From contig JAITVK010000025.1 in assembly GCA_031285845.1 (NCBI GenBank), positions 1-37,208 on the forward strand: a stretch of 37,208 nucleotides of DNA, written 5' to 3'. This document shows positions 7,835 through 31,593 of this stretch, piece after piece. The notes under the pieces are model-generated. The model had not been told where the DNA came from. It ran no database searches and saw only the letters and a program-made list of their open reading frames with translations. The number at the start of each line of letters is the position of its first letter. Within the stretch, counting starts at the first letter, position 1. This stretch comes from Propionibacteriaceae bacterium. GTDB lineage: Bacteria; Actinomycetota; Actinomycetes; Propionibacteriales; Propionibacteriaceae. The translations under genes were made by a program, and so were the position numbers.

Positions 7835-8701
7835 ATGGAGTTCACCCAGGTTCGCCCCCACCTTTTCACTGCTCATCTCGAGGCCGCCCACGCGTCGGCC
7901 TGCCTGGTCGTCGGTCGTACGAGCGCACTGTTGGTGGACACTGGTTCGTCGAACCAAGTCGGCGCTCAGATCCGTGACGCGATTGGGGCGGTGAGCGCGG
8001 TCCCGCTGACCACAGTCGTGGCGTCGCACGCCCATTGGGATCACGCGCTCGGACTGGGAGCGTTCGCCGACATCGCAGACACCATCGGCGCGGAGCACTT
8101 CGACGAGGATCTACTGGGAGTTGAGAACGCCACCTGGGCCAAGACTCATCGGGTGAATCTGAAGAAGGCGGCTCGCCCGAATCACCACGTGTCGCTGATC
8201 GCGGTGCGGGATCTGGGCGGGATCACCGTCGAGATCGCCCATTTCGGCCAGGCGCACACCCGGTCGGACCTGGTCGTGGCGGTGCCAGAGTCGCAAGCCT
8301 TGATCGTCGGTGATCTGGTCGAAGACGGAACTCCCCAATTTGACGAGTCGACCAGTCTGGATGGTTGGGTACGCGCCCTGGATTCGCTCCACTCGCTGCT
8401 GCGCGACGACACGGTCGTCATCCCCGGTCACGGCCCAGCGCTGCACGCCGGCCACGTCGCCCATTTCCGTACCGGCTTGGCTGCGATCTGGGACCAAGCC
8501 GAGTGGGCCTACCACCGCGAGATTCACCAAGCCGAGGTCTACGACTACGACCAACTCCAGTGGCCCTGGGATCGCGCCACCGTCGAGCGAGGGATCGCCA
8601 TCGCCTACGCCGAGTTGGACGCGCGCCCCCACCTCCACGCCACCTCAGGCCAGATCGGCCCGAGCTTCAATGGCACGGGACTGCCGATCAGCCCAGTGTG
8701 A
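7835..8701 (+). CDS. MBL-fold metallo-hydrolase
   Basis: A 288-aa metallo-beta-lactamase-superfamily hydrolase. Metal-binding motifs are visible: the VVASHAHWDHALG segment (HxHxDH) near residue 70, AHFGQAHTRSDLVVAV (third His) near residue 130, the metal-bridging Asp in ALIVGDLVED, and VVIPGHGP (C-terminal His) near residue 198. The substrate cannot be told; glyoxalase-II-like and quorum-quenching-type hydrolases share this pattern. It is transcribed divergently from hrcA. The ATG at 7835 has only a weak ribosome site (GGGTGGAAC). A 251-nt gap separates it from the defence cassette. Confidence 0.85.
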   Translation: MEFTQVRPHLFTAHLEAAHASACLVVGRTSALLVDTGSSNQVGAQIRDAIGAVSAVPLTTVVASHAHWDHALGLGAFADIADTIGAEHFDEDLLGVENATWAKTHRVNLKKAARPNHHVSLIAVRDLGGITVEIAHFGQAHTRSDLVVAVPESQALIVGDLVEDGTPQFDESTSLDGWVRALDSLHSLLRDDTVVIPGHGPALHAGHVAHFRTGLAAIWDQAEWAYHREIHQAEVYDYDQLQWPWDRATVERGIAIAYAELDARPHLHATSGQIGPSFNGTGLPISPV

Positions 8702-8952: not shown

Positions 8953-9432
8953 ATGCCTGAATTGACCACCTCATGGCTGAGAAGCCTGGGATACGACATG
9001 CTGAACCAAGCTCAGCTGCTTGCCGTACTCAAAGAGGCGTACGAAGCGCTCCAGTTAGAAGTTGGCGGTCGCCTCACTCGAGCAATGACCGAGACGGAAA
9101 TGGAGACCTGGGACAGTTTTGACCGGCTCCCCGCGGCGATCGCCGACGAACGCCGATATGAGTGGTTGCAGAAGCACCGCCCTTATCACAGAAATATCGT
9201 AGCCACGGTGCACGCGGAACTCGAATTGAGACTTCGCGAAATTCGTCGGGAGTTTGATGATCTCCAAGACACGTGGAGTCCCACCGTGACGGAGATCACT
9301 ACCCCGGCCGAAGACACCAGGGTAACTCCGACATCTTCAAATGGCGGTAGCAGCAATCCAAGCGATGAGTCGCTGCCCACCGCACAGCCTAGCAACCCAC
9401 CAAGGCCACCATCCCCGCATAGAGAAAGCTGA
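8953..9432 (+). CDS. Small DUF5663-like protein, first gene of the RADAR-like operon
   Basis: A 159-aa protein of unknown function. Residues ~1-105 look all-helical: LRSLGYDMLNQAQLLAVLKEAYEALQLEVGGRL, then TETEMETWDSF, a WLQKHRPYHRNIV segment and a charged helix ending REIRREFDDL. The plan resembles the DUF5663 family by eye (LG..L...Q...L......LE..VG..L......e.e.W....D......WL....P.Y..IV). Residues ~106-159 are a Thr/Ser/Pro-rich, probably disordered tail. There is no signal peptide or membrane helix, so it is not a copy of the membrane RdrC/RdrD accessories described with RADAR. GGAAGG (8936-8941) precedes the ATG. The 3-nt gap to the ATPase implies co-translation and a role in the same system. 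Confidence 0.7.
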   Translation: MPELTTSWLRSLGYDMLNQAQLLAVLKEAYEALQLEVGGRLTRAMTETEMETWDSFDRLPAAIADERRYEWLQKHRPYHRNIVATVHAELELRLREIRREFDDLQDTWSPTVTEITTPAEDTRVTPTSSNGGSSNPSDESLPTAQPSNPPRPPSPHRES

Positions 9433-9435
9433 CTG

Positions 9436-11871
9436 ATGATTCCCGTTCAGATACTCGACACCGCGGCCAAAGAAGTCATTGAGCGTGTGCATCATCTTGC
9501 GGATGATGTCGACAGAGATTTCCTAGACGAGATCAGCCGCGACGACTGCGCGACCGCCCGCGCTCTTGACATTGCGCTGAAGCGAATCGTCGAACCCGCG
9601 CACCACGTGAGTCTCCACGGCGCGCGTGGCTCGGGAAAATCATCCGTCCTGAAAACAGTCCTTGAGACCCTCGCTCAAGATGAGCACGGCCGCTTCGTTG
9701 TCCTCCCACCTGTATCACCGGAGTTGTTGAATCGAGACACAAACCTCATCGATGTGCTGCTCGCTGCGCTCGACTACTCAATCCCGCGAATACTGCCAGA
9801 ACACGCCACTCCTCTCCAAGCAGCCGGACTTCACGAGGCGGTGGCTAACGCTAGGCGTAGCTCAGCCCTCAACCAGATCACCTCGACCGGGCGGCGCACT
9901 GGCGCTGCGACCGCAGTTGACCTCGAACGAATGATTGAAGCCTCAGCCGGGGGAACCGAACGCCTGTGGTTGACAATCCAAGTCCTCATCGCGCAAGTGG
10001 TGAACACGAAATCCACCTACCGAGCAGTCATCGTCTCAGTCGATGACTTTGACCTTGCCCCAGTGGAAAACGAACAGGTGATCCTCACAACGCTGCGCAC
10101 ATTCTCCTCGCTTCAGGGCGTCATTGTCATCACCACCGCCGATCCGGCCGATCTCATCGAGAATGCCCCTCCCGCGATGACGCAGGCAGGAGACAAAGAA
10201 GCTTCAGGCATTCAGAGAGCGAGCCGCGACTACTTGGCCCTGCAGCACCAATACGAGAAAGACCGCAATGCCCGGCTGAAGACCTTGCCCCTAGGCCAAC
10301 TTGTCAAGCTTCCACCAGTGCCATGGTCAGACCGACGGCTCGTGGCGCCTTTTCACAAAGGTCAAGAGTCCACCATTGGACAGAGCATGAGCAGACTGGA
10401 CGCGCTCATGTCCAAAGCGTGTGGCTTGACTATCCTTGAGAGAAACCTCCTCGTGAATGATCCCATCGCAGAGAGGCTTCGTCTGAAGGTGCGCGGTCTC
10501 GACCCACTTCCCTCGAACCTCAGACTATTGAGCTATTTATCTGAAAGCCTTGCGGTTCTTTCCGCCACTCTTCCCAACTTCCCAACTGAACTGGGCATAC
10601 AAGCAATATCTCAATCTCTGTTCCAGACCATTCAGCAACCCTTCGGTGCGAGCAAGCCACCGCAGCTCGACTGGGTCGCCGACTATGAGAACGAAGAGAA
10701 CACCTCTATTGTGTCTTTCGATTTCAGCGGGATACGGTCAAGCATCAAGAGTGGGAGGTGGACCAGCGACGATGCCCGCTCCTCGACCGTGACAGTCGAA
10801 CTCCGACCGATCGATGAAATGTTGTCGAGATGGAATGTTGGTGAGACTACGAGTCGTCAAGATCCATTGTCGAATCCCGGAGATTATGGGATCGCATTGG
10901 CCATCCAGGGGATCCTCCTAGACGCAACGTCGGGTTCACTCGAGTCCGGTGACACTCCGCACACATTCGGACTTGGGCAAAGCGACTTCGCTTGGTGCCA
11001 GTCCATCTCTATCAATAAGACAGAAACTGACGATCGATTCCTTTCACTCCCGCTATGCTCCAATCTCCGAACCACTATGCGGTCACTGGCTGGATGGAAC
11101 GCCATTACTGAAAGACACGACCGCGAGCACCTGAGGATCGATCAGCTCATGGCTTTGACTATCCACGCTGCGATCGACATTTTCTTCAAAGACACGTGGT
11201 TCGTGGCAGCGGAGGCCGAGACCGACTACGAAAAGGCCATGGAGGACCTCAGCGCAGCAGTCTCAGACTGTCTCGCCCGTTTCTCGAGAGAAGGATCACG
11301 AAAGGCAGGAGACCGCGAGCACCTCGTGGACTGGTACTGCTATTGGGTCCCCTCGCACTGGCATGAGTCCTTCTTCAGTCCGCTCCAGATCACAGCCTTC
11401 ATCCACACGATAAAAGACACGATGGGCGTTACTTCATTCACCCACAAGAGCCTCTCACGCTTCAACTATGTGAAAAGCGCGGTCGAACGTATTCGAGACA
11501 CGATCCGCACGTCGGGAACAGGGGCGGCGATCGAAGAAAACCAATGGTGCGGCGGCTACCGAACTCTGGTCGAAGTGGCCGAAGTCGTGCTCAATCCCGA
11601 GCAGATGGATACTTTCCGAGAACTGATCACCGCCTATGACCGCCACGCCACACGGCGATCCCTCGGAAGTCACGCCACGAGCGGCTCCACATCCAACCGC
11701 GAACCGGACAACGGCCCAGAAGACTGGCAACCACCACGGTCGCCTTCGGAGCTTAGGGAAGGCTTCACAGGAGAAACCAACCCGCCCCCCGATGAAGCAG
11801 AGTTTCCACGGCTCGCCCAAGCGCTCACTGACTTCACCGTCCAGCAGCTTCGTCGGTGGCCCACAGCCTAA
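9436..11871 (+). CDS. rdrA: RdrA-like P-loop ATPase of RADAR
   Basis: An 811-aa cytosolic ATPase. Walker A is GARGSGKS (residues 62-69). Walker B is AVIVSVDDFDL, with the acidic pair at residues 203-204. A sensor-like strand GVIVITTADP follows at about residue 225. The remaining ~580 residues are a long helical C-terminal region, and residues ~735-785 are Pro/Ser/Asn-rich and probably disordered. In RADAR, RdrA assembles into ring-like complexes and works with RdrB deaminase. That function is inferred here from pairing with a deaminase-like gene and matching size, not from a residue-level alignment. The start at 9436 is 3 nt after the small gene, with AGAGAAAG as ribosome site. The stop precedes the rdrB-like ATG by 14 nt. 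Confidence 0.75.
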   Translation: MIPVQILDTAAKEVIERVHHLADDVDRDFLDEISRDDCATARALDIALKRIVEPAHHVSLHGARGSGKSSVLKTVLETLAQDEHGRFVVLPPVSPELLNRDTNLIDVLLAALDYSIPRILPEHATPLQAAGLHEAVANARRSSALNQITSTGRRTGAATAVDLERMIEASAGGTERLWLTIQVLIAQVVNTKSTYRAVIVSVDDFDLAPVENEQVILTTLRTFSSLQGVIVITTADPADLIENAPPAMTQAGDKEASGIQRASRDYLALQHQYEKDRNARLKTLPLGQLVKLPPVPWSDRRLVAPFHKGQESTIGQSMSRLDALMSKACGLTILERNLLVNDPIAERLRLKVRGLDPLPSNLRLLSYLSESLAVLSATLPNFPTELGIQAISQSLFQTIQQPFGASKPPQLDWVADYENEENTSIVSFDFSGIRSSIKSGRWTSDDARSSTVTVELRPIDEMLSRWNVGETTSRQDPLSNPGDYGIALAIQGILLDATSGSLESGDTPHTFGLGQSDFAWCQSISINKTETDDRFLSLPLCSNLRTTMRSLAGWNAITERHDREHLRIDQLMALTIHAAIDIFFKDTWFVAAEAETDYEKAMEDLSAAVSDCLARFSREGSRKAGDREHLVDWYCYWVPSHWHESFFSPLQITAFIHTIKDTMGVTSFTHKSLSRFNYVKSAVERIRDTIRTSGTGAAIEENQWCGGYRTLVEVAEVVLNPEQMDTFRELITAYDRHATRRSLGSHATSGSTSNREPDNGPEDWQPPRSPSELREGFTGETNPPPDEAEFPRLAQALTDFTVQQLRRWPTA

Positions 11872-11876
11872 GGGAG
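11871..11876 (+). promoter_or_regulatory. Ribosome binding site deciding the rdrB-like start
   Basis: AGGGAG, overlapping the last base of the rdrA stop codon, lies 9 nt upstream of the ATG at 11886. This supports 11886 over the earlier in-frame start at 11856 that lies inside rdrA. Confidence 0.6.
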
Positions 11877-11885
11877 TCATGCAAC

Positions 11886-14063
11886 ATGCTTGATGGTGTC
11901 GGCGCCTTCATTCTGTCCGAGATCTTTGATCCTCGGTATCTTGGCGATGAGAAAACCGTTGTGGACCGCGCGCTGGACTGGAACGGCGACAAGGAATCGG
12001 CGACCAGCGCATGGGCTCTTCGCGTGGCCGAGTCGCGACTCATGACTGGCGATGCCGCGAAGGAATCGGTCCGCGATCTTTTAACCCGCAAAAGCTACTG
12101 GAACAGACGAGAAGGATTCGACCCTCTTGAGTATCTCGGCAGACACCGATTCGACGCGACAGATTTGGAGTCCGGTCGCAGTTCGCTAATCGTTGATCTC
12201 TGCGGTCAGTACCAGCCTCGTAAGGAAGCTGAACCAGCCGAGGTCGTCCCAGTCACGGACTCTCATGTGCATGCTGGCCTGGCGTTCAGCCGCAGAGAGC
12301 TCGCACGAACTCTGACAACTCCAACCAAGTTCGCTTACTCCCCCGGTAACCTGCAGTCTGGCAAAGTGACCGTTCTGGCAGCTTCCCTCCGGTTCTCGAT
12401 ATGGGTTCTCAATGCCTGGCACACCGAGCATATGAGCGGTCGCAAAACCAGCCCCGCTCCGTGCGCGACAAGCTGGCTCAAGGTCATCAACGGTTCATTT
12501 TGGAGCCGCATCAGGAAGCTACTGGACACCCCTTGGGAAGTTCAACACTGGCACGAAGACGGCTCCCCAGCAAATCTGCTTTACCAAGAACTCCAAGAGC
12601 TGGACACTGATAAGTGGAACAGTCTCACGCCAACCGACCTTCCGCCGATTCCTGATCTCCTGGCGTCACTCAGTGGGGACGGCCTATTCCAAGCGATGGA
12701 CGATGCCAGACGACACTTCACCGTGAACACCATTCGCGCGATGATGACTCTGTTTAGCCCCATAACATCGGTTGTTGGCGAGGGTTTTGCGGCTTTTCAA
12801 GAACGCACGCTCGCCGCGGGGCGCCTTCGTTCTGTCTTGTTTCCAAAACACGACCCGTCGGAGCATCGGCAACTCTCCGAACGCACTCGCCAAGCGAATT
12901 CCATCTCCGCCGCCTTAACCTCCTACCCCAGCCCATTTGAGTGCGTCGGACTTGAACTTCGACGAGAGATCGATGCTCATTCCACTGTGAGCGAAGCCGC
13001 CATTGATGTTCTGGAGTCTGTGAGCAAGGGATGGCTGACTATCGAACAAGTCCTCAAAATGAACCCAGGCCTGAAATCGTTCGCCAGCCCAGTCTCATTC
13101 CAGCGCCCACGCCCCGCTTGGTGGAGTGAGGATCTATCCTGGAGCACACGCAGAGACTCCCCGTGGGCGATTGAACGCTTCGGATTGCGAGGATCCGACT
13201 TGCGTCACGCGCAGGCCTGGCAGGCTTTGAGCTATACCAGCATCACAGCCAAAGGCCTGCTCACAGCGCGCGACGCATTCAATCGAAAGGCCACAGAACT
13301 GTTACCGCAGTCGGCATCTGCGCTCACCTTCGATGTTGTCGTGAAGTCGGTCGATGTCTCCGGGACAGAATTGCGCCACCCCACCTGGATGTACGTCTCC
13401 GCTATTCGGTGGATCCGCGCCCAGGGCGCGGATTTGACTTACACCGCGCACGCCGGCGAGAGCTTCGAACGCGGGTTCAGTGGCTTAAGAACCATTGGCG
13501 AGCTCTATCTCGGGGACGATTCAACCTCCAGCCATCCACCGAGTCGAATCGGGCACGCTCTCGCCCTGCACGCCGAGTCGCGATATCGTATAGCAGCTCA
13601 GCACCGCCACCAGCGATACACCAGCAGCCCGCACCGTTTCACAGAGATGCTCTTCGATCTATGCTACCTTTTTTACTTATGCATGAATGACTCTCACTTC
13701 GAGCCGTCGCGGTCGGGTGTCGACTCATTGATCCAGGAACTCGTCAAACCCTCTAAGATCCCATCACACATCTGGGCTGATGCATTCATACTCCTACACA
13801 CCCCCGATGTCACCCGCCAGGTCACCGACGGATTTAGACTGGGCTCACACGACACAGTGCGGCTCCTTCCACCTCACGGTCTTCCCGGGTCTTCCACTGC
13901 GACCCCAGCTCTCGGCGGGCTCTCGCCCTACGATCTGGCGTGCGACGGAAAACTCCTCCTCGCACCCCGCCCGAAAGAACAAGATGCCTACAATGCTGCG
14001 GTAATTTGTCTTGGGGGCTATTACAGGAATACCCCAGCATCCGTCGCCAGGGTTCGGCGCTGA
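11886..14063 (+). CDS. rdrB: RdrB-like adenosine deaminase, N-terminal part (frame ends early)
   Basis: 725 aa. It carries the first three metal/catalytic signatures of the adenosine deaminase family: DSHVHAG with H127/H129 (zinc-binding HxH), YTAHAGESF with H522 and E525 (HAGE, the general acid/base motif), and RIGHAL with H557 (RIGH, transition-state histidine). The ~390 residues between HxH and HAGE exceed ordinary adenosine deaminases, as expected for the enlarged RdrB fold. The frame stops at TGA 14061-14063, before the CPxSN and SxDDP motifs. Those occur in the +1 frame immediately after (next entry). In a working RADAR system this protein deaminates adenosine or ATP-derived substrates during phage infection. 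As it stands this chain lacks the zinc-binding Asp. Confidence 0.72.
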   Translation: MLDGVGAFILSEIFDPRYLGDEKTVVDRALDWNGDKESATSAWALRVAESRLMTGDAAKESVRDLLTRKSYWNRREGFDPLEYLGRHRFDATDLESGRSSLIVDLCGQYQPRKEAEPAEVVPVTDSHVHAGLAFSRRELARTLTTPTKFAYSPGNLQSGKVTVLAASLRFSIWVLNAWHTEHMSGRKTSPAPCATSWLKVINGSFWSRIRKLLDTPWEVQHWHEDGSPANLLYQELQELDTDKWNSLTPTDLPPIPDLLASLSGDGLFQAMDDARRHFTVNTIRAMMTLFSPITSVVGEGFAAFQERTLAAGRLRSVLFPKHDPSEHRQLSERTRQANSISAALTSYPSPFECVGLELRREIDAHSTVSEAAIDVLESVSKGWLTIEQVLKMNPGLKSFASPVSFQRPRPAWWSEDLSWSTRRDSPWAIERFGLRGSDLRHAQAWQALSYTSITAKGLLTARDAFNRKATELLPQSASALTFDVVVKSVDVSGTELRHPTWMYVSAIRWIRAQGADLTYTAHAGESFERGFSGLRTIGELYLGDDSTSSHPPSRIGHALALHAESRYRIAAQHRHQRYTSSPHRFTEMLFDLCYLFYLCMNDSHFEPSRSGVDSLIQELVKPSKIPSHIWADAFILLHTPDVTRQVTDGFRLGSHDTVRLLPPHGLPGSSTATPALGGLSPYDLACDGKLLLAPRPKEQDAYNAAVICLGGYYRNTPASVARVRR

Positions 14064-14079
14064 CACATCCGGGGTCCCG

Positions 14080-14535
14080 ATGACTCACATTCCCCGCGAC
14101 CTTGAGGACAGGATCGCGTCATGCCTCGCACATCACGAAAAGAGGGTTGCGCGACTCCTACTCCAGAAGATCAAGCGCACGGAAACGGTCCTTGAGATGT
14201 GCCCCGTGTCAAACCTGACCATCGCTGGTCTCTCCGACTTCTCCAGACACCCCTTCTGGCCCCTGACAAAAGATCCCGAAGTTCACGTGTCGATTAGCTC
14301 TGACAACCCACTGATATTCGGCGGCTTCTCGCACAACGACATCGATTCGCTCCGTTCATCATGGAATCACCATAATAAAGCCGTTCGTAAGCGCATTGAC
14401 CGTTGCTGGCACTGCCTTCCAAGCAACTCGCCTATCACCGCCGCCATGGCCAGACAGGTGTCTGCAATCGCTAAAGAATCGATTGCCATGCTAACTGATG
14501 CCACAATCAACCATGAACTAGGTCTCTCGTATTAG
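14080..14535 (+). pseudogene. rdrB: C-terminal part of the RdrB-like deaminase in the +1 frame
   Basis: 151 aa from the ATG at 14080; the frame is open back to 14005. It holds the deaminase C-terminal signatures missing from the preceding gene: TVLEMCPVSNLTI (E.CPxSN), HPFWPL and HVSISSDNPLIFGG (the SxDDP loop). The first Asp (codon 14302) is the expected zinc ligand; the second, normally Asp, is Asn (codon 14305). The ATG has only a weak CCGGGG upstream. Skipping one base between 14005 and 14063 would fuse it to the upstream frame and give about 880 aa. Listed as pseudogene because a frameshift is the simplest reading; sequencing error, programmed frameshifting or a genuine split enzyme remain possible. 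Confidence 0.65.
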
Positions 14536-14760: not shown

Positions 14761-17274
14761 TCACCGTCGTACCATCTGCTCGTCATGGACCCGGACGGGT
14801 TTGACGAAACTGCGGGCCCGGCGCACCCGGTGGGCGATCTCAACCACCACTGCGCCGCAACCGCCGATCAACAAGGCCAGTGGCCACTCAGCGCTCGGCA
14901 GGTTGAGTTGGAAGAAGGTCTGCGGAAGTGGCAGGAGGAAGGCGCCGACTGCCAAGACGACCAGTGTGACGATTAGCGTGATCTTCCACCAGTTCAAGGG
15001 GCGCGCCAAGACGCCCAACAGCCAGAAGAAGACGACGAACAGGACGACCAGACCCAAGGTGCTGCGCTCGGTCTGAGCTCCTTGACCGATGATGAACGCG
15101 ACGAAGGTTGCCACCCCGGCGGCGACACCGGCCGGAATCGACAGCGACAGCACTCGCGTCAAGAACCCAGGGACGTACTTGCGTTTGTTCGGTCCGAGCG
15201 CCAAAATCGCGGCAGGAATCCCGATCGTCAGCATCGACAACAGCGTCATGTGCCTCGGCAGGAACGGGAACGCGACCCCGAGGATCGCCGTGCAGGCCAA
15301 CAGGCACGTGGCCATGACGTTTTTGGTCACGAACAGGGAAGCCACCCGTTCGACGTTGCCGATCAGGCGGCGACCCTCCGCCAACACTTTCGGCATATGC
15401 GCGAACGACGAATCCAGTAAGACGATTTGCGCGACCGCTTTGGTCGCTTGAGCGCCGTTGCCCATCGCGATGCCGATGTCGGCGTCTTTCAACGCCAGAA
15501 CGTCGTTGACCCCATCGCCGGTCATCGCGACAGTGTGCCCGCGCGATTTCAGCGCATTTACGATCAGGCGTTTCTTCTCAGGAGTGACCCGACCGAACAC
15601 GGTGATCCCTTCCACCAACTCGGCCAGTTCCTCGACTGTGTCAGGCAGAGTACGAGCGTCGACCACCGCGCCAGGGATGTCACGCCCGGGCATGGGGTGG
15701 GACTGATCGACCCCGGACATGTCGCTGGGACGAACATCGACCGCCGACTGAGGATCAGTCACGTTGAGACCGACACGACGGGCCACCGCCGCCACCGTGA
15801 CCGGGTTGTCACCGGAGATCACTTTGACCATCACGTCCTGGCTGGCGAAGTACGCCAAGGTCTCGGCCGCGTCGGAGCGAATCGCTTCAGTCAGTCGGAC
15901 CAGCGCGACCGGTGTGATCTGGCCCCACTGTTCCATGTCATCCACTTTCGCCAACACGATGACCCTGACACCGGCGGCCGCCAACGGTTCGACCACCCCC
16001 AGCAGGTCAGCGTCGGAGCCGGCAACCACCTCAGGGGCCCCCATCACCCAGGCTTGACCGTCATCCAATTCGACCGCTGAGAATTTGCGCGCCGATGAGA
16101 ACGGCACCCTGGCTGTCGCCTGCGCCACCGATTCAGGCACGCGAGCCGCGATCGCTTGAGCCGTCGCATTAGGAGCCGGATCGTGAGCGAAGACCCCCAG
16201 CGCCGCCATCGCGGCCGCCTCGTCAGCCCCAGGCAGGACATCGACGCGGTCGAAGACAATCTCGCCTTGAGTCAAGGTTCCCGTTTTATCCAAACAGATG
16301 ATGTCGACACGGGCCAGACCTTCGACGGCAGGCAACTCCTGAATCAGCGCCTGCTGGCGGGTCAGTTGGAGCGCGGCCAACAGAAAAGCCAACGTCGTCA
16401 ACAGGACGAGACCTTCCGGAACCAGCGCCACCAGCCCGCCGCTCGACCGCAGAACGATCGTGCGCCACTCGGCTTTCACACCATCCCATGATCGATCCGA
16501 CAAGCCACGATACTGGGCGATCAACGCCACAGGGAACATGACCACCACGACCCAGGTGATCCATTTGAGAAGACGATTGGTCGACGCCTGGACTTCGGAG
16601 TACGCCCGCGTGAACACCTTGGCCTCATGCGCCAGGCGCTGAGCGGTCGACGCCTGACCGACCACGGCCGCCCGAAAACGTCCTGTGCCGGCGACCACCA
16701 CCGTACCCGAATAGGCCGACTGGCCGACCTGTTTGTCGACCGCGTCAGACTCCCCCGTCAGATTCGACTCGTCGATCTCCAGATTGTCGGCCACCAACAC
16801 TGGACCATCGGCAGGAATCTGATCCCCCGGTTTCAGACACACCAAATCGCCTTCGACGATCTGGGCGACGTCGATCACCTGCTGTTCACCGTCACGAGTC
16901 ACCGTGGCCGTCGGCGCATGCAACACCGCCAACGAGTCGAGCTTGTGCTTGGCGTACCACTCCTGCCCGATCCCCAACACCGAGTTGAGGACCAGCGCGA
17001 TCCCGAACAAACCATCGATGTACGACCCGGTGAGGATCACCAAGACGAACAACGCTCCCAACAGCGCGTTGAACCGCGTGAAAACGTTGTCCTTGATGAT
17101 CTGTCCCAACGAACGCGATGTCACCTGCGCGACAGTGTTGGCTTTGCCAAGCGCGAGAAGCTCAGCCACTTCGTCGCCGGTCAAACCTTGGGTCAGGTAC
17201 TGCTCAGACACCGAAGCCAACGGCGCTGAGATGGGCGACGCTGACGCCGATGGAGGAAGAACCGACGAATTCAT
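14761..17274 (-). CDS. ctpE: CtpE-like P-type cation-transporting ATPase
   Basis: An 837-aa integral membrane pump. It shows the actuator-loop TGES motif (ESNLTGESDA, near residue 172), the TM4 motif VPEGL (GLVALVPEGLVLL, near 285), the phosphorylation site DKTGTLT (near 328) and the hinge TGDGVNDVLALKDADIGIAMG (near 584), and a C-terminal set of membrane helices from about 640 to the end. The PEGL intramembrane motif, the QELPAVEGLARVD segment before the phosphorylation site and overall length resemble mycobacterial CtpE, reported as a Ca2+ transporter. Heavy-metal CPx and Kdp types are excluded by this motif. The ion is inferred, not shown. The ATG at 17274 lacks a strong ribosome site. It is convergent with the defence cassette and separated by 96 nt from the oleate hydratase stop. 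Confidence 0.8.
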   Translation of the reverse strand: MNSSVLPPSASASPISAPLASVSEQYLTQGLTGDEVAELLALGKANTVAQVTSRSLGQIIKDNVFTRFNALLGALFVLVILTGSYIDGLFGIALVLNSVLGIGQEWYAKHKLDSLAVLHAPTATVTRDGEQQVIDVAQIVEGDLVCLKPGDQIPADGPVLVADNLEIDESNLTGESDAVDKQVGQSAYSGTVVVAGTGRFRAAVVGQASTAQRLAHEAKVFTRAYSEVQASTNRLLKWITWVVVVMFPVALIAQYRGLSDRSWDGVKAEWRTIVLRSSGGLVALVPEGLVLLTTLAFLLAALQLTRQQALIQELPAVEGLARVDIICLDKTGTLTQGEIVFDRVDVLPGADEAAAMAALGVFAHDPAPNATAQAIAARVPESVAQATARVPFSSARKFSAVELDDGQAWVMGAPEVVAGSDADLLGVVEPLAAAGVRVIVLAKVDDMEQWGQITPVALVRLTEAIRSDAAETLAYFASQDVMVKVISGDNPVTVAAVARRVGLNVTDPQSAVDVRPSDMSGVDQSHPMPGRDIPGAVVDARTLPDTVEELAELVEGITVFGRVTPEKKRLIVNALKSRGHTVAMTGDGVNDVLALKDADIGIAMGNGAQATKAVAQIVLLDSSFAHMPKVLAEGRRLIGNVERVASLFVTKNVMATCLLACTAILGVAFPFLPRHMTLLSMLTIGIPAAILALGPNKRKYVPGFLTRVLSLSIPAGVAAGVATFVAFIIGQGAQTERSTLGLVVLFVVFFWLLGVLARPLNWWKITLIVTLVVLAVGAFLLPLPQTFFQLNLPSAEWPLALLIGGCGAVVVEIAHRVRRARSFVKPVRVHDEQMVRR

Positions 17275-20753: not shown

Positions 20754-23700
20754 TCAGGAGCGAGCTCCCGAACCTTTGCGCCGAGTGGCGCCAACCCACA
20801 CACCCAGCGTGGCGACCATCAGGCCGGCGACCAGCGCCCGCAGGTTCAACGCGCCCGAATTGGCGATCTCGCCACCGGTTTGAACCTTGACGGTCTCCAC
20901 CACGGTGAACTTCATCGACACTGAACCGGACTTCTCACCCGTCAGGGTCGCAGTGTGCTCCCCGAGCTCGAAGTTTTCCGGCACCGTGTAGGTGAAGGTG
21001 ACTTTACCGGTCGCGTCCGCGTTGCGGCAGCCCGGATCGAACACCGCCGAATCCAGCGTCAGGCAAACCCGCTCACCAGGGTTGAAGTTGGTGCCCGTCA
21101 CAACCTGCGTGTCACCACGCTTCGGGTTTGCCGGCTTCACATCGATCGCCAAACCGACGATCACGACCGTGGTCGGCTTCGAGGCGTTGCCCGCCTTGTC
21201 GACCGCCACAACCTCGACCTTGGTTCCCGGCTCGACCGGAGTGGTCGGAGTGCAGGTGAACCGGCCGTTGGTGTCGGCGGTCACGTTCTCGCAGCCAGGA
21301 ATCGTCTTGCCAGTCTCGTCGGTGATCTTCACCTGCGAGCCGGGCTCAGCCGAGCCACCGATCTCGGAACCATTGGACGGGTTCGCGATCGGAGACTCCG
21401 GCGCGGTGACGTCCAACCAACCCTCGGTCGGGCCGGAGGTGTTGCCAGCGTCATCAGTCGCCGTCGCGATGATCTTGGTGTCCTTGGTCACCGTGTCCGG
21501 CGTCAGGCAGGACCAGTTTCCATCCTTGTCCGCCTTGACCTCGCACAGCTGGGTCCCATCGGGCAGAGTCACCTTAACCGTGGAACCAGGCTCAGCCTTG
21601 CCACCGATCTCGTCGCGGTTGGCGACATCGATCGTCGGGGGCTCAGGAGCCGTCACGTCCAGGTCACCGGTGGTCGGCTTCGACACGTTCTTCGCCGGAT
21701 CAGTCGCCACAGCAATGATCTCACCGTCAATCGCATCGTCCGGAGTCGGCTTCACCGTCCAGCGACCATCCGGTCCCACCGGAACAGTCACCTGCTTGTT
21801 CCCATCCTTGGTCGGATAGGTCACCGTCACTGTCGTGCCCTCATCCAGATCACCAGGCACGCTGCCCGAGATCTCGGAATCGTTGGCGTTGTCGATGATC
21901 GGCGCGTCCGGAGCGGTAGTGTCCACCGTCACCTTGACCGGAGCCGACGGCTCCGACTCGTCACCATCGGGATCGGTCTGAGTGGCGGTCAGCGTGTGCT
22001 CGCCGTCCTCCAGGCTGGCCTCGCAGGTCCACGTGCCGTCAGGCTTGACAGTCGTCGTGCAGACTTCCTTGCCGTCCTTGTCGACCACGGTGATGTCGTT
22101 GCCGGACTCACCGGTTCCTGTGACCGGCACAGGACGGTTGTTCGTCAAAGACCCATCCTTCGGACCAGTGATCACTGGAGCGTCCGGCGTGGTGTCGGGA
22201 GCGGTGACGGACTTGAAGTGGAGGTCCACCGGCGACGACAGTCGTGCGACGGCGTCAGCGTTGTTCAAATCAGAGCCGGGCTGCGGGATGAACACGATCT
22301 CCTGACCAGCTGCGTACACCTTGGCGGTGAACGTCTCATCCGCGCCAGTGGCCGTGCGGTACTCGATGTCGGAGACACCCTCAGACACCGGCTTGATCGC
22401 ACCGATCTCCAACGCAGCGTCAGTCGAATCGGTGGTGATCACACGGGTCGTCGGGTTGCCCTGGTAGTCGAACACCCGGGCCTGAGCGACGTCGGCCTGC
22501 TCACCATCGGAGAGTTGGTCATCGACCGTCACCTCGACCTGCGTACGGCGATCGTTGGGAACCGGAGGATTCGGAGTCTCCTGGCAGTCCTCATCGATCC
22601 GCGGCACGCAGCCAGCGGTGAACGCCACGGTCTGCGGTGAATCCGACACCTCGACGGTGGCGTCATCAGCCGTCTTGACCAGGCCATGGACGTCGACCGA
22701 CTCGGCCTCGGGGTCAGTGAACTGAACCGAGCACGTCCCATCGGCGCCCGTGACACAGCTGGCCGTACCGGTCGCGGCCACAGTCGCGGTTTCCGCGCTA
22801 TCGCCGAGGAAGGTGGCCGAGTCAACCAAGTAGGTGCCGGTCTCCTTGTCCAAGGTGAAGGACGCGGTGACATCCGGAACCAGGTTGCCGTTGGCGTCAC
22901 GCGCCGTCAGCGTCGCCGTCACCGGCTGATCGATCGTCTTTGTCGTGGCGTCCACGGCGAGCGAGGACTGGCCAGGATCGACCGGACCTGCACGGAAGTG
23001 CAGCTTCACCGGGGACCCTTCGGGAGTCACCGAGGCCGCGCCGATCGCGATGGTCGCGGTGTGCTCACCAGCCTTCTTCGACGAGTACCAGATAGTGGTC
23101 TCGCCGTTGTCATCGGTCGGCCGGACGCCCGTCTGAGCGACCAACGTGTCGTCACCAGGGGTAGTCACCACGTTCTGGCCAGGCACTGCGTTGTCGTACT
23201 TGTCACGAGCGGTCACCTTGACCACGTCGTGGGCGACACCGTCGGCCATCTCGTTGTCAGTCACAACCTCAGCCAGCGAGCAGGGGCCACACACCACATC
23301 AGGAGTCCAAATGGCTCCCTTCGCCTCGCCGATCGGGCCGTTGGACAACGTCGCTGTGAACGCGAAGGTGCCAGCGGCCGTCGAGGTCACCGTGACCGAG
23401 CACACACCAGACGCGTCCGTGACGCAACTCTGATCAGTCGCGCCCCAAGCCGTGGTGTCTTTGTCCACACCGAAGCTGACCACAGCGCCATACACCGGCT
23501 TGTCTTGAGTGTCACGAATCGTGGCAGTCAAGGTGAAAGCGGAGGCATTCGTCGTGCCAACGACCAGCGGAGTGGTCGGAGTGATCGTCCACTGCGAGTG
23601 GGCCGGATCGCCGACGTTGCCGAAGAGCAACTTCGCCGGAGAACCGGTCGGAGTGACCGTCTGGTTGATCCGAACGTCCGCCAGCTTCTCACCAGCAGTC

Positions 23701-26700
23701 GTCGAGGTGTACCAGATGGTGGTCTTGCCGTCGGCGCCAGTGGCCGCGACATCGCTCTGAATCATCAGCGCGTCCGCCTTGCCCTCGACACCAGTCGACG
23801 TCACAGTCGCACCCGGCACCGGGTTGCCGAAGCGGTCCCGAGCCGTCACCGTGGCGATGTCCTGATCCTCACCGTCGAAGCGAGCACCGTTACGCGTGAC
23901 CTCGACCGTGCTCATCGCGCCGTCAACCGGACCGACCAAGAACTCAGCGGTCACCGGGTCGGACACCGCGCCACCGACACGACCGTCGATCGGGTACTCC
24001 CCGACCTTCTCGGAGGTGATCGTGATCACGCACACACCGCTGGCGTTGGTCTGGCACGTCGCCTCAGCGCCATCCACAGCCCCGACCATGGTGACATCAT
24101 CGGGCAGCGTGAAGCTGACCGTGGCATCAGGCAACAGGTTGCCCGTGGCATCCTTCACCGTGGCCGTCACCTCGTAGTTCTCGCCCACCTCTTGTCCAGA
24201 GGCCGGGTTCAAGGCCAAGGTGACCTCCCCGACCGGACCATGGGTGAAGCGCAACTCCGCCGGTGAATACTTCGGAGTCAGTCCGTCCACCGTGACATCG
24301 GCCATGTACGAGCCAGCCTTGGTCGAGGTGGCGTTGAAGTTCACCAACCCGTCCTGGTTCGTCGTGGCAGTCGTCACCGGCATGGTCACATCGGCAGGAG
24401 CATTGACGATGGCCTTGGCATCCGGAACACCGTTGCCGTAGCGGTCGTAGGCGAAGACGTTGAGCACGTCCTTGTCCACGCCGTTGTCCTGAGCATCGTT
24501 CGGATCAACCGTCACCTTGGTGAGGTTGCTCTTGCTCTCGTCCTCCGGAGTACGCGGATCATCGATCGGGGTGCAGTTCTCGGTGCAGACCTTGTCGGGC
24601 ACGAAGGTCACCGTCTGAGGACTGGCTTTCGCCGCGACACCGTTGCCACCCAGATCAGTGGCCACGCCCTTGATCGGCACAGTGGCGTGCACGTCGTAGT
24701 CGCCAACCAGCTTGCTGGAGACATGGATCGAGCAGGTTCCGTCAGCGCCGGTCTGGCAGGTGTCATCATCCACCAGAGCGACCTCGGGCTCGCTGGTGTA
24801 GAAGGACACAGTGACCTTCTCCAGCGGGTTGCCCGTCGCGTCGACGATCTTCGCCGTCGCGGTGAAGGACGAACCCACCACCTGGTCTTCCTTGGGCTCG
24901 ATCGTCAGTTCGGAACGCTCAGCAGAAATGTCACCCACCGAGAAGCGGATGGCGTTCAGCCCGTCCTTGGTCGCGATCGGAACCTCGACATCTTCGGTCA
25001 TCTCACCGGAACGAACCTTCGCGTTCGCTGTGAAGGTTCCCGCCTTGGCAGAACTCCAGCCCATCGCCACCTTGCCGTCAGCGTTGGTGCCATCAGTGGT
25101 CACAGTCTGCGGGGTCAAACGCCCAGCCAAATCACCGGTGCTGGCGTCGGTCACAGTGAAGACCGCGCCCTCAACGGCGTTGCCGTAATGATCGTAGGCC
25201 GAGCCTTGAGCCTCGTCCTTGGACTGGCCGTCAGCGGGCTGATCATTCTTGGTCATGACGATGCTGGTGCGGTGCGTTTGACTCTCGTCCTCGTCGGTGT
25301 CCGGGTTGTCCTCCGGATCGCACTTGGAGACGCAGACCTCACCGGCGGTGAAGACCACCGTCGGAGCGTCCTTGATCTGGACGTCGGTGACGACCGCGTG
25401 CAGCGTGAACGACCCAGCGAATTTCGAGGTCGTCTTGAAGACGTAGTCTCCGCCAGTCGGCGCAGTCTGAGCGAAATCGGCGTCAGCCAGATCCGGAATA
25501 GCCGAAGCGGCGTCGCCAGACAGGACGAAGTCGCCCCGCGTGAGACCCGTGACCGGGTTGTCGAAGGCGTCGCGCACGCTGACAGTGACATCAACCGGGG
25601 AGCCAGCCACCTGGCGAGCCGGATCAACCGTCAAGTGGGTCTTGTCCGGATCCACCGGGCCAGCCACGTAATGCAGCTTGAGCGGAGACTCGGCCACCAC
25701 TTGGCCGTTGTACGTGGCGTTGGCCACATGCTCGGTCGCAACGGTCGAGGTCACGTTGAGAATGCCCTTGCCGTCCGCTCCGGTCACGATGGTCGCCGTA
25801 CCCAGATTCAGGTCAGAATCCTCGGTGGTGATGACGAACTCGATCCCCTCAAGCGGCTTGTTCTGATCGTCGAAAGCCGTAGCTTCCAGAACGTCAGGAT
25901 CCGTGCCGTTGGCCACGGCGCCGTCCTTGATCACCTTCACACCAGACGGCGTGGGGCAATCAGAGCCGAAGCACGGGCCAGGGTTGTTGAACGTAATCTC
26001 CAAGTCGCCAGGCTTGATCTTCGTCGCGATGTCTTGGTAGGTGACATTCGTGGCGTAGGTTCCAGGTGTGGTCGAGGTGTAGGTCACTGAGTACTTGCCT
26101 TGACCGTCGCTGACCACGTCCGGCGAAGTCGTCACGCCATCGGCCGCCGTGAAGTGGAAGTCGGCCGGCTTCAGGTTCGTCAAAACGTTGCCGAAGCAGT
26201 CGGTCGCGTTGACTGTGCCAGTCCACGACGCCTTGCCATCGGCCAAGGCCTGGGTCGCGGCCGGGTCACCGGTCACGCTCACCGCATAGGTGGCGGCGTC
26301 CGGATCCTGCGGATCCAGGCACAGGGCTCCACCCTTGAACGGAATCGGCAGGTTCTCGCCCACCTGCCGACCCTGATACGCGACCGAAGCCGTCGGCGTG
26401 GCGGAAGCCTTCGTCGAGGAGTAGGTCACGGTGTAGGTGCCGTCGTTGTGGTTGATCACCGGGCTGGACACTGTCACATCGGCCGAGCTGGCCGCGAAAG
26501 CGATGTCAGCCAGGTCGAGGTTCTTCAGCAGGTTGCCGCCAGTGTCTTTCGCCGTCAGCGTGCCCGTGTAGCTGGTCTGGCCATCGGCCACGATCCAGTT
26601 CGTCTGATCAGTCAGATCCGTGATCGTCGGGGTCACCTGGAACAGCGAGTTCTCCCACGAGAAACCCGTGGCGGTGAACTCGACCGACTTCGGCGAACCT

Positions 26701-29700
26701 GGCAGAGCGCCCAGATCGATCCTGGCCGAAACCTCGACCACCTCAGCGGTCATGTCCGTGATCTCAACGATAGCCTTGCCACCAGCGCCGGTGTTCACCG
26801 GGACTGTGACAGCCAGCGGCTGATCGGTCGAGCTCATGACCGCGTCACCGCTAGGGCTGGTCAGCCCGAAGGTGACAGGGGTGGCCGTCGTCACCGGGTT
26901 GGCGTACTCGTCAGCCAGGTAGGCTGTCGCGACCGCCTTCTCACCGATCGGCAAAGACGCCGGAGCGACAGACAAGTTGGAGCAGACCCGACCACTGTTG
27001 GTCGCATCCTCGCAGGTGAAGGAGACCACGCCAGCGGCGAACGGGATCGGCTTGTCCGAACCCACCTGCTGACCGTCCCAAGCCGCCGAAGCGGTCGCGT
27101 CGGACAGCGCCACCTTGGACGTGAACTTCACGGTGTAAGTGCCGTCGCCGTTGTCGACCACATCAGTGACGTCGACGTACTGGCTCGAGGCCTCCATGGC
27201 GATCTTGGTCAGATCCTGGCCGGGCAACGGGTTCTTCTTCTCGTCACGCAAGGTCAGCGTGCCGGTGTAGAACTGGTCGCCATCAGGGGCGCCCACCTTG
27301 ACCCAGGTGTCAGATTTGTTCGGGTCGGCAACCGGGGAAACCTCGAAGGAGGAATCCTTCACGCTGACTGTGCCTGGGGTGAACACCACCTCTGCCGGCG
27401 AGCCGTCGGCGATGTTGGTGGAGCCCAAGGCAGCCGACACGTTCACCGTCTCAGCCGTGTCGTCGGTGACGTAGACGATCGCATTGCTGTCGGCGTCGGT
27501 CACGACCGAAGCGGACTGGCCACTGGCGCTGACGCCAGCCGGACCGTTGTTGAACTTGCCAGACATGTCCACCGTGAAGGAGACGGTCGTGCCGGCTCCC
27601 ACCGCGTTGCAGTATTTGTCTGTGATGTAGGCAGTGGCCGTGGAGTTGCCACCGACAGCCACGGGCGAAGTCGCGCGCAGGTTGGTCGGGGTCTTGTCAC
27701 CACAGCTGTCCTTCGGCGGGTTCGGATCACCCTTGCCCGGCTTGAAGGTCACAGTCTTCGGCGACTGCTGAACATCAGTCAGCGCGCCTTGATCGTTCGG
27801 AATCTGAGCATGGATGACGAAGTCGCCCGCCTCGATGCTTTCAATGGTGATGGAACACGTGCCCTCAGCAGAGGTTGTGCAGGTCAGATCGGGTTCGACG
27901 AAGGTGCGAGCCGGGTCGATTGCCTTCACCGAACCGTCAGGATTGACCTGCTCGACCGTGTAGGTGACGGTTTGGTTCGGGCTCAGGTTGTCGTTGGAGT
28001 CGCGCACCTCAGTGGTGGCGGTGTACGTCCGGTTGGCTTCGTCATCCACGGTCAGCGGACCGGCTGGAGCGACCGTCAAGGTCGAATGGGCCGGATCGCC
28101 ATCGTTCGCGGTGAACTCGACGTCAGCCGGTGACCCGGAAACCTGGACGGCGGACCCGTTCTTGGTCACGGAAGCGGACAGCTCCTTCGGATACTTGGCG
28201 GCCACCGTCGAGGTGATCTGGATCGAGCAGACGCCATCAGCGTCGGTGGTGCAGGTCGAAACCCCGCCCACGAAGTTGATTTGGTCAGAGACCTTCGAGA
28301 AGCTCACCGTACGGCCAGCCAGCGGCGTACCCTCGGCGTCGACGATCGTGACAGTGGCGTTCATGTTCGTGCCAGCCGACTGCGGCGTGTCGACGACCAA
28401 AGTCGACTTCGTCTCATCGACGGCACGGTCGTAGCGAACCTCGATCGTGAGATCATCGCCCATCTGTGGGGTGAAGGTGAGGCCCATCCCATCGGCTGAC
28501 AGCTGACCGCCACGCGCCGATGTCAGGTCGTCACCAGTCTTCGTGTCTTTCACAGTGATGGCGCCGACTGACCATGACGCGTTTGGAACGGTGGCCGTGA
28601 CCGTCTTCGCCTGGTTGGCACTGACCGCTTTGCCCACGCCGTACGCCACGGCCGGAGCTGGGTTGGCGTTGAGCGTCTGGCCGTCGACGGTCACCGTCAC
28701 CGAACCACCGGAAGTGGTGGCGGCTGGGCGGTAGACCGCGTCGCCGGCGGTGAAGGTATAGTCCTCGATCTCACCAGGGGTCGACCAGTTGCCCGTCGAG
28801 GACCCCGGAGCGGCCTGATACTCATTGGTCGCGTTGGTCGGCAACATGGTCGCGACCAGCGAGCCCTGGGTGCGCAGCTGGACAGTCGGGGTGCCAGACA
28901 CCGCGCCTGTCGTCTGTAGTTGAAGCGTGCCGGTGGCGCGAGCGCCGCTGGTTCCCGCCGTCGTGGTCGGAGCCCACTTGACCGCTGAGTTCGACGCCGT
29001 CCATGAGGTGGCGCCAATTCCCGGGGTCCACCCGGTCACCGTCGCCGCGCTGGCTGACGCGCCGCTCAAGTTCGCGGCCAACTGATACTGACCGGTGGCA
29101 GCCAAGGCGTCACCTTGCAACGGAATGTCGCCGCCGTACGCCGCGATGAAGACACCGTCATCGGTGGCGTTGTGCGCCGCGTTGTCGGTGGCAGGACCGT
29201 CGTAGGTTCCCAAGGTGTCGCCCATCCACAGTGTGGCCGGCTGGCCCTGAAGGTGGATCGGAGCGCCCTCGGCCAGGCTGGCCGGGCCAGCGCCCGCGTC
29301 GCCATATGACGCACGAGTGGTGATACCGAAATTGACGATCGCCAACTCGGAGTCGCCGTTCATCTGAACTGAGGCGTACACCGGCCAGGTCGCCGGGTCA
29401 CTGTGCTCGTTGATCGCCCCGATGGCCGGATCGACGTACGGAGAAGCCTTGGCGCCGGCGCACGCGCCCGAACCGGAGGTGATGTCGCCGTCGACACAGT
29501 GAATTGTGACATCATTCAAGGTACCCTCGACACCGCCCCAGGTCTGGACGGCATTGGCGCCGTTGATCTGCGGCTGAGTCAGACGCACACTGTACTTTCC
29601 GTTGCCGGACACGATCAAACGATAGGAACCGTCTTGTGCGGTCACCTGAGTGCCGACCAACTCGTCAGCCTCGTCGTAGACCGCGATTCGGACGCCGGCG

Positions 29701-31256: not shown

Positions 31257-31593
31257 CAATACCCCCACATAACTCGTTCACTAGTTTCACGACATCCGGT
31301 TCACTAGGCCGTCATCGTGAAACCGCGGTAGTGTCACCGCGTCACGGCTTATCCTGTCATGCCTGAGCGCACAGTGCAATAGCAACGACACTAGTTTGAC
31401 ATGCCCGTTAAAGCACTGAGAAATGCCTCAAATCTAGGGGGGACGTAGTCGAGTGCGCATGACAATCAGCAATCTATATGCTCATCCGAGCCGAGCTCAT
31501 GCACCAATGTGCATGAGCCAATGATTATGGTGCACATACGACAGGAGAAACGCATGATGCCGGATTCCGGAGGAAATAGACGAAGACGCATGG
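31257..31593. promoter_or_regulatory. Intergenic region upstream of the giant gene with repeated CACTAGTTT motifs and a 10-bp hairpin
   Basis: No gene is seen. CACTAGTTT(C/G)AC occurs at 31279-31290 and 31389-31400, and a related TTCACTAGG at 31300-31308. CGCGGT/ACCGCG forms a small hairpin near 31330-31350. GCTCATGCAC (31495-31504) and GTGCATGAGC (31509-31518) form a perfect 10-bp inverted repeat around a 4-nt loop. These may be operators for the giant gene; no clean -35/-10 pair was found. Confidence 0.4.

Follow-up and report, generated by a model that had tools for sequence, protein, structure and literature searches.

The question raised by this locus is whether a plus-strand operon of a Propionibacteriaceae bacterium (assembly GCA_031285845.1, contig JAITVK010000025.1; the whole 37,208-nucleotide (nt) stretch analysed is called the window) encodes a form of RADAR, the defence system that pairs an RdrA ATPase with an RdrB deaminase, and what its unusual small first gene would do there. 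An initial annotation had proposed a RADAR variant with a soluble accessory. This proposal is supported by wide RdrA and RdrB profiles run with controls, by trees, by fold comparisons and by the small gene itself, which is found in 4/4 members of one group and in 0/58 other loci having an RdrB-type gene. That the locus was acquired horizontally and belongs to a divergent RADAR subtype, one whose leading gene encodes a soluble DUF5663 protein, has a probability of roughly 0.85 in our estimate. From its sequence it looks like a fourth RADAR subtype, and the DUF5663 partner is new, being found in no other RADAR examined. The operon consists of the following open reading frames (ORFs).

8953..9432, plus strand: small DUF5663 ORF, 159 residues, first gene of the operon
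9436..11871, plus strand: RdrA-type AAA+ ATPase ORF, 811 residues
11856..14063, plus strand: N-terminal and central part of the RdrB-type deaminase, 735 residues from a GTG (an ATG at 11886 is also possible), with HxH, HAGE and RIGHALAL
14011..14535, plus strand: C-terminal part of the RdrB-type deaminase in another frame, 174 residues, with CPVSN and SSDNP

The same three genes occur in four loci

Reference RADARs were taken from one genome of the same phylum (L022) and from six plasmids. A motif alignment with the window as its first row, scanned over genome contigs, returned 376 candidate stretches and 49 loci. In the best two relatives, L038 and L039, the small gene is likewise accompanied by an ATPase and by a deaminase in a single frame (752 and 740 residues, respectively), and family searches around their genomes (200 and 199 genomes) added a fourth member, L129 in genome G1021, found via its deaminase alone. 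The three genes of the operon recur, identically ordered, in L038, L039 and L129, where the deaminase occupies one frame; in each of them, as in the window (9436-11871, 11856-14535), rdrA and rdrB are adjacent, in that order and on the same strand. Seen again at three loci outside this genome, the gene set and its order are more than a chance arrangement. Apart from these members, nearly every match of the family searches is limited to the final part of the profile and resembles an ordinary deaminase; L130 in genome G938 is a RADAR of another branch that lacks the small gene. L039 belongs to Micromonospora alfalfae. L038 (JASDDH010000007.1) is labelled Planococcus; its flanks have a guanine plus cytosine (GC) content of 0.68 and the nearest system is in Micromonospora, and the label is probably wrong.

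The three-gene cassette is rare. Single-protein scans of viral and genome contigs gave no match, tblastn gave none against plasmids (ATPase and deaminase) or phages (ATPase and small protein), and three motif-alignment scans, two over viral contigs and one with poor patterns, gave no relative. A gene-order search with the ATPase returned 2/391 genomes, namely that of the window and one with an ABC-transporter gene (L002, as read from its ORFs), and a search of the phylum with the deaminase returned the genome of the window alone among 396. The NCBIfam RdrA and RdrB cut-offs were passed by none of 396 genomes, although L022 of that set groups with the RADARs.

A soluble DUF5663 protein is encoded ahead of the ATPase

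The ORF at 8953-9432, described as DUF5663-like in the initial annotation, matches this family (PF18908) above its cut-off (E 3.8e-7, 31 bits for a cut-off of 23.7). Its highest 19-residue Kyte-Doolittle mean is 0.61, hence no membrane segment is predicted. Homologues hold the first operon position in the three sister loci: the small proteins of L038 and L039 match DUF5663 with E-values of 4.9e-14 and 1.8e-13, and that of L129, whose gene lies directly upstream of the ATPase, was recognised at E 2.6e-5. When each of the four was left out in turn, the E-values were 4.3e-17, 1.5e-14, 9e-13 and 5.5e-5. Between the small gene and the start of the ATPase gene lie 3 nt in the window; in L039 and L129 the two genes overlap by 4 nt.

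The co-inheritance of the small gene with this group was counted over 61 loci with an RdrB-type gene besides the window, three of which have it. Six of the 58 loci without it are truncated by a contig end that falls within or close to rdrA or rdrB (L058, L065, L082, L084, L085 and L086), where its absence carries little weight; the 58 also include the near-copies L035-L037 and the pair L045 and L086 on one contig. When a four-row profile of the small protein was run on 60 loci, on the window and on a contig of the same genome, with shorter ORFs admitted, the sole addition was a second copy in that genome, on contig C18. This second DUF5663 ORF starts with an apparent partial copy of a histidine-kinase gene (L160 5879-7057). 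The idea that DUF5663 is a common actinobacterial gene was rejected, as it was found in 1/296 genomes, the window's own, in two copies. The term DUF5663 had no occurrence in the literature searched, to which subscription papers and preprints mostly did not belong.

The ATPase resembles RdrA

The 811-residue ATPase has its Walker A motif at residues 62-69 and an acidic pair at Asp203-Asp204, exactly where the initial annotation had placed them. Positions G62..K68, D203-D204 and R363 (the sensor-2 Arg) are invariant or nearly so in 32 aligned rows, and the sensor-1 residue is a putative assignment. In Pfam the ORF matches AAA_16 and KAP only; KAP/PifA-type ATPases share with it the P-loop and the Walker B region. 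A profile built from 49 RdrAs outside the group was more specific: it scored the window ATPase at 70.5 bits and those of L038, L039 and L129 at 88-93 bits, whereas none of 33 non-RADAR KAP/AAA_16 control loci (six genomes) exceeded 30.4 bits. Residues 501-760 match the three sister ATPases with 44.5 bits.

The structural model of the ATPase is mostly good over residues 1-240, with a dip at 151-170. In a fold search against the PDB, ranks 1-20 were RdrA chains (best E 5.1e-10), followed by the origin recognition complex (1.2e-5). The model puts helices 104-119, 126-154 and 160-189 in the stretch from strand 87-89 to strand 197-202, which separates the second strand from Walker B; a further helical insertion, following sensor 1, has its helices inside 237-283, flanked by strands 229-235 and 289-291. 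For both inserts the underlying alignment held classical RdrA rows. This modelled layout is close to that published for RdrA, except for three crown helices versus four, and the spacing from Walker A to Walker B is 135 residues versus 139 in E. coli RdrA. The C-terminal region is modelled as helical, with a predicted local distance difference test score (pLDDT) mostly below 50 after residue 380.

The deaminase is of RdrB type and lies in two frames

All the deaminase motifs that had been listed from the sequence are present, but they do not lie in a single ORF: HxH (137/139), HAGE (532-535) and RIGH (564-567) are in the ORF 11856-14063, and CPVSN and SSDNP in the ORF 14011-14535, which is in a different frame. 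The catalytic set of E. coli RdrB (H152, H154, H498, H530 and E501) aligns with H137, H139, H532, H567 and E535, all of which fall in invariant alignment columns, and the first residue of the later Asp pair is present in the second frame. An ordinary adenosine deaminase has about 340 residues, and fewer than 200 of them separate its HxH and HAGE motifs; over both frames the window protein has about 890 residues, and this spacing is 393.

We then considered whether an ordinary adenosine deaminase simply lies beside an unrelated ATPase, as Pfam might suggest, since it gives only the generic AAA_16, KAP and A_deaminase (the last for the C-terminal ORF, E 3.3e-8). On a profile of 50 RdrBs the totals were 54.1 and 41.3 bits for the two window pieces, 113-130 bits for L038, L039 and L129 and 65.1 bits for the best ordinary deaminase. 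It is the position of the match on this profile, and not the total score of each piece, that separates the window from ordinary deaminases. The strongest match of the latter is to the last part, at about 696-785 (four examined by domain); the window pieces match at positions 446-582 (53.2 bits) and 697-786 (40.9 bits). Over positions 440-590 the window scored 53.2 bits and the spanning matches of the sisters 62-126 bits, and the best of 43 ordinary deaminases scored 26.4 bits, half the window value. This middle-region score, the length of the protein, the specificity of the RdrA profile (70.5 versus at most 30.4 bits) and the tandem order kept at 4/4 loci leave the ordinary-deaminase explanation hardly tenable.

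Because of the frame break in the window copy, the deaminase of L039 was used for the fold model (pLDDT 70.1, predicted template modelling score 0.77). Against the PDB, ranks 1-8 were RdrB chains (best E 7.3e-12, template modelling score about 0.5), followed by adenosine deaminases (3.6e-7); the 8hr7 chains were assigned as RdrB by their length, and the match to RdrB spans about 760 alignment columns, gaps included. In this sister protein the long match may take in RdrB inserts 1-3 of the ADA core, though the alignment was not free of classical rows. The first chain of Cad1, the CARF-adenosine deaminase of type III CRISPR systems, which is reported to share an ATP-deaminating adenosine deaminase (ADA) fold used in defence, came at rank 42. 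No CARF domain was detected in the window proteins with Pfam, NCBIfam or PADLOC, and the PADLOC CARF_ADA match covers the ADA end only.

Trees and the assignment to RADAR

A single branch separates the four DUF5663 loci from the other rows of the deaminase tree (55 rows; support of 99 in the Shimodaira-Hasegawa-like approximate likelihood ratio test, SH-aLRT) and likewise of the ATPase tree (51 rows; 94). Deaminase trees built without L038 and L039, or without L129, still united the window with the remaining group (97 and 99). The deaminase tree holds 62 rows less seven, the near-copies L036 and L037 and the split or cut L062, L065, L072, L082 and L085, and the ATPase tree 53 rows less two, L079 and L084. 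Both were rooted at the midpoint.

Several observations weigh against placing the locus in RADAR. The public models score it poorly: NCBIfam gives RdrA 23.7 bits for a cut-off of 600 and RdrB 19.8 and 17.4 bits for a cut-off of 800, while PADLOC ranks PifA (E 9.9e-6) and mad8 above RdrA (E 0.012) for the ATPase, gives RdrB an E-value of 0.004 and prefers CARF-ADA for the C-terminal deaminase piece. Each deaminase piece taken alone has a total no better than that of many ordinary deaminases, 7/43 of which score at least 10 bits (10-26) in the RdrB middle region. The deaminase of the window copy is split over two frames, and the second residue of its later Asp pair is an Asn where L038, L039, L129 and two classical sequences have Asp, a residue that hardly varies across 38 rows. 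Past residue 380 the ATPase model is of low quality (mean pLDDT 55.4), and the alignments behind both fold models, of the ATPase and of the L039 deaminase, held classical RADAR rows, which draws the models towards RADAR and keeps the folds from being separate evidence for the family. As for the small protein, that of L129 scores 22.3 bits on PF18908, below the cut-off of 23.7, and DUF5663 is not restricted to RADAR, since a second region is present in the same genome (G000:C18:1874-2008; L160 1589-2242, minus strand). Finally, the branches are very long (3.2 and 2.3 changes per column for the window), which makes the placement of the group inside or beside classical RADAR unsure.

The profile check proposed by the initial annotation had a mixed outcome. 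The PADLOC and NCBIfam models fall far below their cut-offs, which goes halfway towards the refutation it had envisaged, whereas the wider profiles with controls support RADAR. These cut-offs are curated thresholds and not biological traits. Passages of PMC9994260 give identities between RADAR proteins of only 22-25 percent for the ATPase domain and 24-28 percent for part of RdrB, and with such low identity the weak matches to public models are not a refutation. Current public RADAR models miss an entire branch, and standard tools would not call the window locus.

A separate ATPase-deaminase defence system, sister to RADAR and not inside it, could give a similar picture. The midpoint root of the deaminase tree sets the four loci opposite the 51 others, the public RADAR models miss all four, and the window is 20-25 percent identical to its nearest rows. 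However, RADARs are equally divergent from one another (22-25 percent identity within the ATPase domain, lower outside it), the active sites and gene order agree with RADAR, and the ATPase tree unites the group first with L061 (95) and next with a further 12 RADARs (91), with the same reservation that the root is a midpoint. We regard such a sister system as unlikely and retain the assignment to a divergent RADAR subtype.

The frame break of the window copy

The two deaminase frames overlap at 14011-14063 and are both homologous to parts of one protein; truncated at the first stop, the deaminase would be without its C-terminal motifs. The break may be an assembly error or decay, and the window copy may accordingly be misassembled or dead; for it to be active, the break would have to be bypassed or to be an error of assembly. 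With its deaminase split, the locus may not amount to a working RADAR system in this genome. That the break is real and the copy dying or dead, with an inactive deaminase, has close to an even chance in our judgement. The two frames and the Asn at a nearly invariant Asp position speak for it, as do the toxicity of RdrB when overexpressed, reported in the part of PMC9994260 consulted, and the finding of split RdrBs elsewhere. On the other hand, the small gene and the ATPase are intact, the part beyond the first stop retains homology and a third-position GC of 0.64, and draft assemblies contain small errors. RdrB is also split over two ORFs in the RADAR loci L062 (5693-8169), L072 (5254-8011) and L082 (3294-5928), and three of the four splits, the window included, lie at profile positions of about 567-697 (insert 3).

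Alternatively, the frame change could be used by the cell, through a programmed shift or through two deaminase pieces made separately and then assembled. The homology of both frames to one protein and their overlap would fit, and an in-frame ATG is present at 14080, 16 nt past the first stop. Yet the split occurs in 0/3 sister loci, the splits of other RADAR loci are at other profile positions, and no classical shift site was recognised by eye. We consider a used frame change very improbable; a programmed frameshift was rejected as first choice since the three sisters are single-frame.

Comparison with known RADAR subtypes

Three RADAR subtypes are described in the parts of PMC7699616 and PMC11676413 consulted: rdrAB, the Csx27-associated rdrABC and the SLATT-associated rdrABCD. 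The window shares with stand-alone rdrAB (E. coli, C. rodentium and S. suis) the RdrA-RdrB tandem, the AAA+ motifs, the zinc-histidine deaminase site, a long deaminase and rarity, and differs from it by the extra soluble DUF5663 gene placed first, by an identity of about 20 percent and by scores far below public cut-offs. With rdrABC and rdrABCD it has in common small accessory genes beside RdrAB (PMC7699616, PMC11676413). In those sources, as far as consulted, the accessories are Csx27 or a small membrane protein with a SLATT domain, while the window has a soluble one from another family, encoded ahead of rdrA; it has no hydrophobic segment, and both neighbours of the operon are host genes. 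No RADAR variant with DUF5663 appeared in the titles or abstract openings of the RADAR literature searched, a search that mostly excluded subscription papers and preprints, and the passages of PMC12948488 consulted name RdrA and RdrB only.

Proposed mode of action

Passages of PMC9994260 describe RdrA heptamers that dock on an RdrB dodecamer, RdrB producing ITP and dITP, and an RdrA C-terminal lobe that may sense phage; they call the activation trigger unclear. By analogy, the AAA+ protein of the window would form a ring, sense a phage cue via its C-terminal lobe and dock on an RdrB shell, and the RdrB would deaminate ATP and dATP to ITP and dITP. The poisoned nucleotide pool would then stop phage growth, at a cost to the cell.

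From its operon position and co-inheritance, our best guess is that the DUF5663 protein has a regulatory role on RdrA, as a subunit that could act as brake, adaptor or cue-binding partner in place of the accessories of other RADARs. A stronger version, in which it is the control element that locks the ATPase ring in an inactive state or detects the phage cue, and would thus answer how RADAR is switched on, is offered tentatively and has odds well short of even. If true, this would be the first function for DUF5663. As a small soluble protein whose gene is coupled to rdrA and passed on with one branch of RADAR, the DUF5663 protein offers a concrete candidate for a RADAR regulator, and the single-frame operons L038, L039 and L129 make this candidate testable.

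Genomic setting

The operon is inserted beside host genes that are outside the system.

7835..8701, plus strand: metallo-beta-lactamase-fold host gene, upstream flank
14761..17274, minus strand: P-type ATPase host gene, downstream flank

The operon had been described as set between minus-strand host genes. This holds downstream; the immediate upstream neighbour is the plus-strand gene at 7835-8701, and minus-strand genes lie beyond it. The low GC noted at third codon positions was confirmed, with 0.61-0.64 in the operon genes versus 0.75-0.82 in 12 other measured window genes, and the operon is richer in AT than its surroundings at all four DUF5663 loci (window, L038, L039 and L129). The metallo-beta-lactamase-fold gene is present in 17/19 genomes of the same genus, the window's own counted, and adjoins hrcA in 6/9 same-genus stretches examined. 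In the same-genus genome G174 (L153) the matches to the two flank genes are 62 nt apart with nothing between them, that is, an operon-free site; in four other same-genus stretches different genes lie between them. With this empty site and the AT-rich operon, a gain of the cassette by this genome is most likely. No flanking repeat resembling an insertion scar was seen by eye, Rfam and transfer RNA searches of the window gave no match, and promoter and terminator patterns were at chance level.

Restriction/methylase-like ORFs (recognised by eye) lie beside the metallo-beta-lactamase gene in two same-genus genomes (L152 1519-2634 and L154 2558-8176), so that this place may be a variable spot for defence genes.

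Other RADAR loci showed features of their own. The Myxococcota contig JAKLJY010000125.1 (L045, L086) carries two different RADAR deaminases about 16 kilobases apart. An annotated adenylosuccinate synthetase lies immediately downstream of a Rhizobium RADAR (L031 8106-9707) and could return IMP to AMP. In L035-L037 the RADAR genes are on IMG/VR contigs with phage-like neighbours, and L035 is near a Pantoea plasmid copy in the tree. In the window itself, the minus strand at 20754-31268 holds a single ORF of 3504 residues with, by eye, a secretion-like start.

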